Part shown: positions 3,982 to 14,880 of the stretch, in pieces
How the letters are laid out: every line of letters starts with the position of its first letter
Position numbering within the stretch: position 1 is the first letter of the stretch
Virus record (IMG/VR): IMGVR_UViG_3300008116_000226
Location: 1 to 32,039 of that record
Strand: one strand, 5' to 3'
DNA length: 32,039 nt
DNA from: a virus
Position numbers and translations under genes: made by a program
Notes under the pieces: generated by a model
Told to the model about the DNA's origin: nothing
The model's database searches: none
Seen by the model: the letters and a program-made list of their open reading frames with translations, nothing else

Positions 3982-4511
3982 ACGAAGAGCAAAAACAAGC
4001 AGCAAAATTCCTCGCCAATATCGACGAGATGATCGCAACCATGCCAGATGACGAAGAGACTCCAGCATTTGCACAGAATTACCCCTCAGAGAGCGTTTCA
4101 GCGATTCCGAGGGTGGACACACCGCTAGTAGACTTCCCAGACCGTCACGGTCGAAATCTGGAGCTTTACGGAGAAGAATGGAAGAAGGCATACTTCAAGG
4201 CACTCGCAATCGCGGAAGCCGGCGGCATCATCATCGCCTATGGACTCCGAGGCACCGGCAAAACGCAAATCGCTTGCGAGATTGCTCGCAATGCCAAGTT
4301 CCAGAATCCGCACCTTCCCAAAAAGCTGTGGAATATGTCACATGTTCCTCTTTATCGGTCAGCAATCTATGCAAAGGCGATGGATATCTTCATCGATCTC
4401 AAAAACGGATTCAATCGGAAGAATGAACCAAGCGAGAAAGAAGTCATCCATCGATTAGTGGAAGCTGTGTTCCTCGTCATCGATGAGGCACATGTTCGTG
4501 GCAGGCATTGA
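3978..4511 (+). CDS. DnaC-like helicase loader, C-terminally truncated
   Basis: A 177-residue P-loop ATPase. Walker A is GLRGTGKT (residues 89-96) and Walker B is FLVIDE (165-170). The N-terminal ~60 residues are acidic and probably bind helicase or initiator. Phage loaders of this type normally continue some 70-90 residues past Walker B with sensor 1, the arginine finger and sensor 2. Here the frame stops seven residues later (AHVRGRH). None of the three frames downstream resumes a loader-like sequence; the next ATG (4512, same frame) opens the methyltransferase. The start at 3978 is chosen for its ATGA overlap with the initiator; the open frame upstream is a shadow of that gene. It is either a functional short loader or a gene damaged when the methyltransferase was inserted. 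No phage helicase is present, so host DnaB would be the partner. Confidence 0.7.
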   Translation: MNEEQKQAAKFLANIDEMIATMPDDEETPAFAQNYPSESVSAIPRVDTPLVDFPDRHGRNLELYGEEWKKAYFKALAIAEAGGIIIAYGLRGTGKTQIACEIARNAKFQNPHLPKKLWNMSHVPLYRSAIYAKAMDIFIDLKNGFNRKNEPSEKEVIHRLVEAVFLVIDEAHVRGRH

Positions 4512-5477
4512 ATGCAACTGGCAATCCTACAGAACCAAGAAAACACTGTGAACACAAAAACAAGAAACGAAAATGTTATACCACCTCAACAAAGACAACT
4601 CAGAACACTCCATCTCTTTGCAGGAGCAGGTGGAGGAATACTTGCAGACATACTTCTTGGACATCGACCAATCGGAGCCGTGGAGATTGAGAAATACCCA
4701 AGACGAGTATTGCTCGCCAGACAACGAGATGGGATCTTGCCAAAGTTCCCAATCTGGGACGATGTCAGCACCTTCGACGGCAAGCCGTGGAGAGGACAAG
4801 TTAACATTGTTTGCGGAGGATTCCCTTGCCAAGACATATCCAGCGCAGGAAAAGGTGCTGGCATCGAAGGCGAGCGCAGCGGAATGTGGAAACACATGGC
4901 ACGAATTATCGGTGAGATACGACCGAGATACGCATTCGTGGAAAACTCATCTTTGCTTGTGGGACGAGGACTTGCCCTGGTCCTTGGTGACCTTGCCGAA
5001 ATGGGGTATGATGCGAAGTGGGGTGTGCTGGGAGCAGTCGATGCCGGTGCGCCACACAGACGAGACAGAATCTGGATTATGGCAGACTCCAACATGCACA
5101 CAGATCGAACTACGTTCAGAGGAGGCGTGGGAGAAGAAGAAGGTCAGCAGGAACAAATTAGGCAGGAACAGTCTTCCGCCTGTGACGCTACAAGAACAAG
5201 TGATGATGAGCGGATCAACACCGTCGGTAAAAAAATGGCCGACTCCGATAGTCAACGATTCGCACAACTGCATGATGCCACCAAGTCAACTAACGAGGAA
5301 CAATCTTCCAGGTGCAATGTTGAGGGAAGGAGAGAAACCCAATGGTGGACATCTGAACCCAACGTGGGTCGAGTGGCTCATGGGGTGGCCGCTAGAGTGG
5401 ACAGGCTTAAAGCAATCGGGAATGGGCAAGTTCCAGCGGTGGCTGCGCTCGCATGGAAAATTCTAAGCAATCAATAA
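4512..5477 (+). CDS. DNA cytosine-5 methyltransferase
   Basis: A 321-residue C5-cytosine methyltransferase using S-adenosylmethionine. Motif I is LHLFAGAGGGI (about residues 33-43) and motif IV is CGGFPCQD with catalytic C106. Motif VI is VENS (E144-N145), motif VIII is RRDRIW (183-188), and a variable target-recognition region spans about 195-285. Motif X (RLKAIGNGQVP) lies near the C-terminus. All core motifs are present, so it should be active; no cognate endonuclease is nearby, which suggests an orphan protecting phage DNA from host restriction. The first ~30 residues are A-rich and precede the usual domain start. The ATG at 4512 directly abuts the loader stop, and the GTG at 4548 is an alternative start. 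A second long ORF (4573-5466) overlaps it in another frame. Confidence 0.9.
   Translation: MQLAILQNQENTVNTKTRNENVIPPQQRQLRTLHLFAGAGGGILADILLGHRPIGAVEIEKYPRRVLLARQRDGILPKFPIWDDVSTFDGKPWRGQVNIVCGGFPCQDISSAGKGAGIEGERSGMWKHMARIIGEIRPRYAFVENSSLLVGRGLALVLGDLAEMGYDAKWGVLGAVDAGAPHRRDRIWIMADSNMHTDRTTFRGGVGEEEGQQEQIRQEQSSACDATRTSDDERINTVGKKMADSDSQRFAQLHDATKSTNEEQSSRCNVEGRRETQWWTSEPNVGRVAHGVAARVDRLKAIGNGQVPAVAALAWKILSNQ
4573..5466 (+). CDS. Overlapping 297-aa ORF inside the methyltransferase gene
   Basis: This frame, one base ahead of the methyltransferase frame, is open for 297 codons and lies wholly inside that gene. Its translation is not random-looking. It contains THSWKTHLCLWDEDLPW, LPKWGMMRSGVCWE, KWPTPIVNDSHNC and GGHLNPTWVEWLMGWPLEW. 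I recognise these from many phage proteins annotated as hypothetical or 'DNA methylase' C-terminal parts. The same DNA that encodes NPTWVEWLMGW encodes EPNVGRVAHG of the methyltransferase. The ATG at 4573 follows an A-rich leader (acaagaaacgaaa) and has no Shine-Dalgarno sequence. It may be a truly overprinted gene, or an out-of-frame image that databases have propagated because the methyltransferase DNA is conserved. I cannot decide from one sequence, so confidence is for expression as a protein. Confidence 0.35.
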   Translation: MLYHLNKDNSEHSISLQEQVEEYLQTYFLDIDQSEPWRLRNTQDEYCSPDNEMGSCQSSQSGTMSAPSTASRGEDKLTLFAEDSLAKTYPAQEKVLASKASAAECGNTWHELSVRYDRDTHSWKTHLCLWDEDLPWSLVTLPKWGMMRSGVCWEQSMPVRHTDETESGLWQTPTCTQIELRSEEAWEKKKVSRNKLGRNSLPPVTLQEQVMMSGSTPSVKKWPTPIVNDSHNCMMPPSQLTRNNLPGAMLREGEKPNGGHLNPTWVEWLMGWPLEWTGLKQSGMGKFQRWLRSHGKF

Positions 5478-6011: not shown

Positions 6012-6164
6012 ATGAACATGAACGAACTACAAGACAAGCTCGATGAGCTAGAATACAAGGAGATTGATGCGATCAGATATGGTCGTCTGGATCTGCTGCC
6101 ATCAATTCGCAAAGAGATGCAAAACATTCAAAATCAAATCGATGAAAATTCTAGTTGCCTGTGA
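6012..6164 (+). CDS. Small acidic helical protein, 50 aa
   Basis: A 50-codon ORF starting MNMNELQDKLDELEYKEIDA and ending NQIDENSSCL. It is almost entirely predicted helix with heptad-like leucines, so possibly a short coiled coil. The start is either the ATG at 6012 or the one at 6018. It directly follows the promoter-like sequence and overlaps the methylase-like gene by 23 nt. No family recognised. Confidence 0.5.
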   Translation: MNMNELQDKLDELEYKEIDAIRYGRLDLLPSIRKEMQNIQNQIDENSSCL

Positions 6165-6846
6165 ATACAGTGGCGCAGTCCGCGATTCATTCATTGAATT
6201 AGGGCATGATGCTATGTCATGCGACCTACTCCCTACGGACACTCCAGGACCGCACTACCAAGGAGATGTTGCCGACTTGCTTGGTGAACATTGGGATATG
6301 ATGATCGCATTCCCGCCATGCACTTATCTTTGCTCGTCAGGGATGCACTGGACGACTAGAGGCATCCGTGATCCCAAGCTCACCGAGGATGCACTCGACT
6401 TCGTGCAGATGCTACTCAATGCGAACATCAAACACATTGCTCTTGAGAATCCAGTAGGATGTATCTCGTCACGGATTCGCAAGCCAGACTGCATTATTCA
6501 ACCTTGGCAATTTGGGCATCCAGAATCCAAGACAACATGCCTATGGCTGAAGAATCTACCAAAACTCATTCCCACCAATATCTTGGAAAAGCCAGCAAGT
6601 GGACGGTGGGAGAACATGACACCCAGTGGACAAAACAAACTACCACCAAGTAAAGACCGATGGAAAGAGAGATCGAAAACATACATGGGCATTGCCAAGG
6701 CAATGGCGAAGCAGTGGAGCGAATACGCATTGTCTTCGCCGGTGAACTCCCAGAATGCGAATGCTGCGGAGAACCTTGGTGCGCTATTCACATGGAACAC
6801 TACGCCGACTGCGACTGCATCGGACCTAGCAATGCTGAAGATCTAG
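6142..6846 (+). CDS. C5-methyltransferase-like protein (PPC/ENP type)
   Basis: A 234-residue protein with a SAM-methyltransferase-like N-terminus (MKILVACEYSGAVRDSF, acidic D28 in CDLL). PPC (58-60, IAFPPCTYL) stands where C5-methyltransferases have PCQ, and ENPVG (102-106) is in place of ENV. GHPESKTTCLWLKNLP (126-140) and a Gly-Ile-Ala-Lys-Ala-Met helix near 183-188 follow. There is no motif X. Such proteins are common in phages and are usually called DNA cytosine methyltransferase; activity is unproven. The start at 6142 begins the conserved part; the 26 upstream codons are a shadow. The last ~42 residues (from about 193) are low-complexity and lie over the next gene in another frame, so they may be a run-on rather than a functional domain. 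Confidence 0.7.
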   Translation: MKILVACEYSGAVRDSFIELGHDAMSCDLLPTDTPGPHYQGDVADLLGEHWDMMIAFPPCTYLCSSGMHWTTRGIRDPKLTEDALDFVQMLLNANIKHIALENPVGCISSRIRKPDCIIQPWQFGHPESKTTCLWLKNLPKLIPTNILEKPASGRWENMTPSGQNKLPPSKDRWKERSKTYMGIAKAMAKQWSEYALSSPVNSQNANAAENLGALFTWNTTPTATASDLAMLKI

Positions 6847-13859: not shown

Positions 13860-13884
13860 AATGTGTTAGTTTCTTGTGTTAGGA

Positions 13885-14880
13885 TTAGTAAGCGATTTTT
13901 CCGTGGGCTTGAGGATGCTTGACGCACAGTGTGCCAGCAACGTCTACGAAACCACGCTCACCACCACCTTGGTTCTCAAGGCGAGTAGCACCCATCGGAA
14001 TCAGGGTGTTAAAGCCCAGATACTTAGGATTGAGGACGTAGCCTACGTTGGTCGAACCGGTTGGCATACAGCTTGGGTTGCCGTTCACGATCTTCACAAG
14101 ACCGAAGTCGGAGTCATACAGGTTCACCGAGAGGGTGATTGCTTTGCTCGTAGCGTCTTGGTTAACGTGGTAGGTCACGCCAGCGTTGGCGGGTTGCGCA
14201 CGGGTGAAGTTGCTGATCAACTGACGAAGTGCTACGTTAGCAACAAGCGTCAAGCTGTTCATCTCACCGTTACGAGCGAAGATCGAACCAATCAAGGAAT
14301 TGAACGAAGATTCGCTGATGGTGGACGAGATGATCGAACCCGAAGGAGTGCGGTAGTCAGCAGGAACTGGATTCGTAGCTTGTGCCGTGGACTGAATCCA
14401 CTTGCCAAGACCACGCATACCGTAAGGAGTGCCAGCACCGTTCTCAACCGTCATCTCGTTGTCAGAGGCGATGGTTGCTTCGATGTCGCGTTTGATCTCA
14501 CGCATCGACTTAGCTTCAGCTTGTGCGACATTGGCAGGACCAACGCTCGTTACAGCTTGTTGCAGGTTCGATACGATGTAGTCACGGCGCATCAGTTGGA
14601 TGTAGTTACCCAGGCGGGCGCGGTTAGCGAACTTGTCGGAGAACGAAGTCACATCCGAACCTTCGCTAATACCAGTGGTAGCTGGAGCAGCAAGAGAGTC
14701 AACAGTCCACTCAGAATAGGTGGCGCTGGCTTTACCTTTGCTGCAAAGCGAGAGGATGGGAGTTTCTTCAGGAGCCAGGATAGCAAGTTCATTGCTGAGA
14801 TCCTCGCGGTTCGATACGGCGGAACCCTGACCAGTTTTTGCGGTCGGGGCAGATGGTTGATAAGTATTTGAGATAGGCAT
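13885..14880 (-). CDS. Major capsid protein, SU10/DUF5309 type
   Basis: A 331-residue HK97-fold capsid protein. Diagnostic blocks: NREDLSNELAILAPEETPIL (25-44), then TYSEWTVDSLAAP, RARLGNYIQLMRRDYIVSNL (about 87-106) and AQAEAKSMREIKRDIEATIA (119-138). The sequence NREDL…AP-x-E-TP…Y-x-EW…D-x-L, plus the E-loop and KRD-x-EA spine helix, is that of the SU10-like capsid family. It has a Gly-rich end and no protease or N-terminal delta domain, so the separate scaffold upstream fits. It is the most strongly expected virion gene here, and its opposite strand also carries a 331-codon open frame, judged an artefact. Confidence 0.9.
   Translation of the reverse strand: MPISNTYQPSAPTAKTGQGSAVSNREDLSNELAILAPEETPILSLCSKGKASATYSEWTVDSLAAPATTGISEGSDVTSFSDKFANRARLGNYIQLMRRDYIVSNLQQAVTSVGPANVAQAEAKSMREIKRDIEATIASDNEMTVENGAGTPYGMRGLGKWIQSTAQATNPVPADYRTPSGSIISSTISESSFNSLIGSIFARNGEMNSLTLVANVALRQLISNFTRAQPANAGVTYHVNQDATSKAITLSVNLYDSDFGLVKIVNGNPSCMPTGSTNVGYVLNPKYLGFNTLIPMGATRLENQGGGERGFVDVAGTLCVKHPQAHGKIAY

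Follow-up and report, generated by a model that had tools for sequence, protein, structure and literature searches.

M.AquI is a two-subunit C5-methyltransferase (C5-MTase) with CYCGRG as its sequence, and the small chain of M.EcoHK31I is encoded within the gene for its large chain, in another frame. M.EcoHK31I is reportedly a two-polypeptide C5-MTase (YGGCCR), said to have been described by Lee, Kam and Shaw in 1995. According to one source (PMC3404938), the large chain of M.EcoHK31I carries motifs I-VIII and X along with the predicted target-recognition region (TRD), while the small chain carries motif IX; another (PMC3439449) describes the enzyme as naturally split. For M.AquI, the first source (PMC3404938) assigns the catalytic motifs I-VIII to one chain and IX to the other; X accompanies IX in the small subunit.

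The window analyzed here, a 32,039-base virus record, contains a C5-MTase locus that resembles M.EcoHK31I as outlined there: a large (alpha) chain holds motifs I-VIII and X, and a small chain, ORF2, holds motif IX. It differs in the region between motifs VIII and X, where the DNA evolves in frame with ORF2, whereas the predicted TRD of M.EcoHK31I is placed in the large chain, a comparison made by description. The locus also resembles M.AquI in having the catalytic motifs I-VIII in one chain and IX in the other. However, the M.AquI arrangement, with a small chain that carries both IX and X, does not occur in the window and is instead found in two relatives of the locus (L326 and L340). Sequence comparisons suggest that the window very probably encodes a two-chain C5-MTase like M.EcoHK31I, with its halves nested in two overlapping frames.

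Layout of the two overlapping frames

The original prediction drew attention to a 297-codon ORF in the +1 frame of a methyltransferase gene. We recovered this ORF in the same place, and all four peptides that had been singled out in it were found within ORF2. The elements of the locus are as follows.

4512-5477, + strand: alpha chain, C5-MTase ORF of 321 aa (PF00145, E 4.6e-29; phrog_363, E 8e-70)
4573-5466, + strand: ORF2 or beta chain, 297 aa, ATG start, +1 frame of alpha
4593-5075, + strand: catalytic core of alpha with motifs I-VIII, as delimited by the profile in the window, dN/dS 0.35 over 70 pairs
4573-5067, + strand: ORF2 residues 1-165, the N-terminal portion overlying motifs I-VIII, weak amino acid constraint, stops excluded
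5068-5352, + strand: ORF2 residues 166-260, which contain W-x-TP / WPTP modules and probably serve in target recognition
5353-5403, + strand: ORF2 residues 261-277, LNPTWVEWLMGWPLEWT, probable C5-MTase motif IX (from hhalign and fused or split relatives)
5403-5435, + strand: alpha motif X core, RLKAIGNGQVP, read off the translation

Alpha carries motifs I, IV, VI and VIII of the PF00145 catalytic core, and its match is limited to positions 2-215 of the 324 in the profile. The earlier statement that all methyltransferase motifs are intact in frame 1 did not hold: frame 1 holds motifs I-VIII and X without a recognizable motif IX, which lies in frame 2. Since the PF00145 match ends at position 215 and alpha is unconstrained between VIII and X, alpha does not combine a TRD and motif IX in one chain. 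ORF2 belongs by profile match to phrog_1008 (E 1.4e-17, ORF2 56-278 on profile positions 14-280 of 329) and also matches phrog_26627 (E 8.2e-13); its protein matches 84 records of the phage collection, in keeping with the likeness to phage proteins that had been proposed for it. ORF2 alone had no match among Pfam or NCBIfam families or, by profile, in the PDB; phmmer gave one chance-level row (E 0.46), and the AlphaFold model of ORF2 alone was poor (mean pLDDT 57.6, pTM 0.27), with exceptions that include its C-terminus. The role of ORF2 is therefore read from its relatives.

The ATG of alpha (4512) abuts the stop of the upstream ORF (TGAATG), and a GTG at 4548 is an alternative candidate start. 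Across 179 distinct start contexts, the ORF2 ATG lies 4 nt after an MTase-frame start codon (NTG-A-ATG) in 124, each of which has an ORF2-frame stop just before the ORF2 ATG. A start-type codon occupies position -4 in 129 contexts, 106 of them with a Shine-Dalgarno-like tetramer upstream, and the consensus of 141 loci is purine-rich and GGAGG-like at -13 to -9. Given the 4-nt spacing and this upstream consensus, a single ribosome-binding site could serve both chains in the start-coupled form. The window is among the other 50 contexts: its ORF2 ATG (4573) is 61 nt past the MTase ATG and has no clear Shine-Dalgarno site by eye.

Close downstream of the locus is a second MTase-like gene (6064-6846, + strand), which matches phrog_757 'DNA methyltransferase' (E 3.7e-69) and no Pfam family at E 1. 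Elsewhere in the window, a 331-codon ORF (13885-14880, - strand) matches a major head protein (phrog_1328, 1.1e-55); antisense to it is a 331-codon open frame (13876-14871, + strand) with no PHROG match.

Openness and selection in the two frames

In the MTase core of the window (267 codons), the +1 frame contains no stops compared to 4.3 expected from synonymous codon shuffling, with none of 300 shuffles as low, and the other overlapping frame contains 18 (14.5 expected). We extended this count to 51 non-redundant sequences, comprising the window and 50 MTase-selected loci (from 81 sequences before redundancy filtering). The +1 frame of these sequences contains 4 stops versus 224 expected from synonymous shuffles, openness beyond chance of the kind that marks a dual-coding gene, and 49 of the 51 have no +1 stop at all; the other overlapping frame contains 840 (732 expected). 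The four stops fall two each in L089 and L158. Those in L158 lie upstream of ORF2, and the ORF2 of L089 is open despite its two stops. Controls consisted of 13 C5-MTase genes without an ORF2 match (16 rows, from four bacterial genomes that each also have an ORF2-type locus) and contained 76 stops, with about 73 expected. The original prediction had held that stops appearing freely in this frame among relatives would count against it; +1 stops are instead nearly absent. An origin of ORF2 by chance or as an image is ruled out by the shuffles and the other C5-MTase control genes.

The association of the two frames was consistent across sampling strategies. Eighty viral loci were collected by ORF2 protein and 80 by MTase protein (the latter choice blind to ORF2), and the best ORF2 match lay in the +1 frame of the MTase in all 160, though the two sets have contigs in common and represent fewer than 160 contigs. 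Distant phage MTases of the K1ind2 type were fetched using the K1ind2 MTase as query, with loci from annotated collections representing a sample among the matches listed; 31 of 44 rows had no +1 stop and 13 had one to three (1.0 to 7.9 expected), and in one of these loci (L297) a +1 stop breaks ORF2. A genome scan yielded 166 relatives by ORF2 alignment, and each of the best 80 of the 166 had an MTase match with ORF2 in its +1 frame. Whether relatives of ORF2 occur without an overlapping methyltransferase had been raised at the outset: the nearest are second chains of actinophages, which are mostly free of overlap, while no free-standing full-length nested ORF2 was found among these best 80 genome relatives. 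In four loci from bacterial genomes (L178, L180, L207, and L225), the alpha frame is broken and ORF2 intact, which may reflect error or decay. The genome of another locus (L242; G005, an Oscillospiraceae bacterium) has an unusual load of 26 PF00145 matches, some of which are pieces of one gene.

We examined which frame is selected where using 70 independent pairs from 199 distinct of 241 loci, for which both profiles were required and many of which were found via ORF2. MTase codon positions 1, 2, and 3 correspond to ORF2 positions 3, 1, and 2. Differences per site at MTase positions 1, 2, and 3 were.107,.058, and.232 over motifs I-VIII. For the stretch from VIII to X they were.368,.196, and.187, and for the IX/X region.137,.064, and.161. 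Change between VIII and X is thus concentrated at ORF2 position 3 (.368 vs..187 at position 2, a direction found in 65 of 69 pairs), indicating that the DNA there behaves as ORF2 coding sequence. Over I-VIII, the direction is reversed in favor of the MTase frame in 70 of 70 pairs. When the analysis was repeated with 20 pairs from loci found by MTase query only (45 after identical copies were removed), differences between VIII and X were.330,.235, and.232, with the direction kept in 14 of 19 pairs. Amino acid identity between VIII and X was.727 for ORF2 versus.538 for alpha (ORF2 higher in 66 of 68 pairs), and over I-VIII was.888 for alpha versus.736 for ORF2 (this order in 70 of 70 pairs).

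At constant effect on the other frame, the dN/dS of alpha was 0.35 over I-VIII, 1.13 (95% CI 0.99-1.33) between VIII and X, and 0.50 (0.39-0.62) in the IX/X region; corresponding values for ORF2 were 0.74 (0.64-0.85), 0.53, and 0.36 (0.26-0.50). Stop-creating changes were depleted, at 0.17 times missense for ORF2 over I-VIII and 0.28 times for alpha between VIII and X. A contrary count came from ORF2 between VIII and X, where stop-creating changes were 0.89 of missense and not depleted, a value we take to be caused by non-matching modules that align badly in this stretch. In the IX/X region, purifying selection acts in both frames at the same sites, the pattern of dual coding. ORF2 is a real gene under selection, and the selection on the wobble base of MTase codons that it was predicted to require is displayed in these data. 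Alpha between VIII and X, a stretch of as few as 29 codons, is a passive linker that mainly needs to stay open, and the N-terminus of ORF2 over I-VIII is weakly constrained in amino acids yet held stop-free. An out-of-frame image, as considered in the original prediction, is indeed present, but in frame 1 from VIII to X (dN/dS 1.13) and not in ORF2.

Motif IX and the relatives of ORF2

The C-terminal LNPTWVEWLMGWPLEWT of ORF2 is likely motif IX, preceded by a likely target-recognition region, a reading based on the equivalent motif in split, X-joined, and single-chain MTases. A pattern forcing an MTase-frame stop at the LNPTWVEWLMGWPLEWT motif found 17 loci, of which three (L329, L332, L339) have neither profile and one (L335) is truncated. 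The remaining 13 have a principal frame-1 profile match that stops past motif VIII (no later than profile position 186), and their motif X lies in the ORF2 frame, following an EWLMG motif. Motif X reads RLKAIGNGQVP in L021/L328, in the ORF2 frame, and in two loci of the X-joined form (L331, L336) the ORF2 frame is interrupted before motif X. Full ORF2 profiles together with motif X were found in 13 ORFs (several of them near-copies, and L226 and L240 from bacterial genomes), and a further three ORFs have the ORF2 C-terminal profiles plus motif X.

Three annotated methylase pairs of actinophages (BellusTerra gp80/gp79, KHumphrey gp42/gp43, and Andrew gp43/gp44) resemble the window in that the second gene lies +1 of the first, carries LPTP modules and an EWMMG motif, and matches phrog_1008 (4.1e-47 to 1.7e-79). 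Unlike in the window, their genes overlap by only 20, 23, and 239 nt, and the second chain also has motif X; relatives of one such second chain occur in at least 556 phage records. As in the window, ORF2 lies inside the MTase gene of K1ind2 (annotated 'Mte8-like protein') and Diva ('g49 internal gene'), though it begins later in the MTase gene than the window's, and the records name no function further. In Pseudomonas phage phPA-G (L324, 1439-2167), the sole CDS shown is the ORF2 frame, a hypothetical protein, with the MTase frame unannotated. Of 5,426 E. coli genomes, 68 contain stretches with 60-80% identity to portions of the K1ind2 MTase gene, and several of these have two MTase features beneath the match.

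Other relatives join both halves in a single chain. The prophage protein prophiFVLQ01-1 gp6 runs through motifs I-VIII, then LLPTPT..., LNPRFAEWMMGWPLDWV, and QLRICGNGVVPQQA in one frame. Viral loci L362 and L368 are single-chain MTases, the former with a frame break just beyond the start of motif X and a split sister (L361), the latter without LPTP modules, and phrog_116 matches both halves in order. In Gordonia phage Phinally (L370, around 1352-2908), LPTP modules occur in the reading frame of the single-chain MTase gp5 and, at a more upstream position, also in its +1 frame, as though both frames had received a copy of the array.

Alignment of the TRD-IX-X tails of split and single-chain MTases with ORF2 (hhalign) gave a probability of 93.5 and E 2.3e-7 over this motif only, spanning 20 columns. 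When the L368 tail was compared to the PDB, the sole match was a weak one (E 0.25, over motifs IX and X) to a DNA methyltransferase (4onj, 4onq), presumably of the DRM type; a profile of 16 tails matched only one unrelated PDB chain. L368 as modelled by AlphaFold (mean pLDDT 62.8; 71-93 in ten-residue means over residues 401-490) superposes on M.HhaI between residues 4 and 491 (Z 19.1, rmsd 4.0, 248 residues), suggesting that this relative shares the M.HhaI order of I-VIII, TRD, IX, and X, though most of the best C5-MTase rows in a Foldseek search with the model cover just 110 to 160 columns. Unlike the window locus, M.HhaI is one chain in one frame.

The recognition region also differs between close relatives. 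From about 4503 to about 5574, L081 is identical to the window save for a substitution at 5183 and a 117-nt insertion, the 39 codons of which add one WPTP module to ORF2. This difference fits a recognition region that varies by modules. The two sequences are unrelated in the stretch of about 100 nt that was compared before position 4503; the pair thus has a mosaic junction at the MTase start, as well as module gain or loss in the recognition region.

A two-chain reading and its alternatives

ORF2 is most likely the missing DNA-recognition half of the same enzyme. In this two-chain arrangement, alpha would supply the catalytic and cofactor core (motifs I-VIII) plus motif X, and ORF2 the target-recognition region and motif IX; the chains would assemble post-translationally into a single enzyme for methylating the phage DNA, probably as protection from host restriction. 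Both frames would then include a stretch whose main requirement is to lack stops, namely the beta N-terminus over I-VIII and alpha between VIII and X. A selected ORF, selection that changes frame along the gene, the partition of motifs, and natural fused and split relatives were all observed directly, and from these sequences we infer the translation of ORF2 as well as the assembly, activity, specificity, and purpose of the enzyme. The original choice between overprinting and an image was partly right: the overlapping gene is real, but ORF2 is likely the target-recognition and motif IX half of the enzyme it overlaps.

Frame 1 could instead be a complete one-chain MTase, with ORF2 a separate overprinted protein of other role (e.g., anti-restriction). 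Frame 1 is indeed open through motif X in all 80 MTase-chosen loci (none of which failed the two-profile test), and some phage records name it alone as the methyltransferase. We nevertheless consider this improbable, since frame 1 has no recognizable motif IX, its VIII-X stretch is short (down to 29 codons) and free of amino acid constraint, and the ORF2 motif serves as motif IX in single-chain and split MTases. Fusion of frame 1 to ORF2 by a programmed +1 frameshift, with ORF2 lacking its own start, is very improbable: ORF2 has its own ATG, placed 4 nt past the MTase start codon in 124 of 179 contexts, and is stop-free over I-VIII, which a later frameshift would not need. Although the frames overlap over most of the gene and both halves form one chain in some relatives, the window has its motif X in frame 1, and a single shift would therefore leave the enzyme incomplete. 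We give almost no credence to ORF2 as an out-of-frame image of a conserved MTase or a product of composition or nucleic-acid constraint. Its weak amino acid constraint over I-VIII (0.74) is compatible with such an origin, but the synonymous shuffles, the C5-MTase controls, and the shift in variable position between VIII and X are not explicable by frame 1 alone.

The motif split of the favored two-chain enzyme is already known; its extent, nesting, and shared start set it apart as a variant. Searches by title and start of abstract returned no paper describing a phage-MTase overlap, an absence that is weak given thin coverage of subscription literature, and no account of ORF2 as a recognition half, of a shared start, or of near-complete nesting was found in the literature searched.

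If the two-chain interpretation is true, many phage and prophage C5-MTases are annotated in one of two required frames, such that a cloned single gene would be inactive and predictions of recognition would be wrong. The overlap would also be traceable from short (in actinophages) to near-complete nesting, with selection measured per frame, making the evolution and upkeep of long same-strand overlaps testable. A broader synthesis, for and against which we see equal chances, is a widespread, interleaved, two-frame phage C5-MTase that is start-coupled and changes specificity through modules. One ribosome-binding site and two start codons 4 nt apart would set the ratio of catalytic to recognition chains, which would be inherited only together, and WPTP modules gained or lost would shift specificity where the sequence of the catalytic chain is irrelevant. 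In that case, many of the 'DNA cytosine methyltransferases' of this type in databases would be half-enzymes as annotated.
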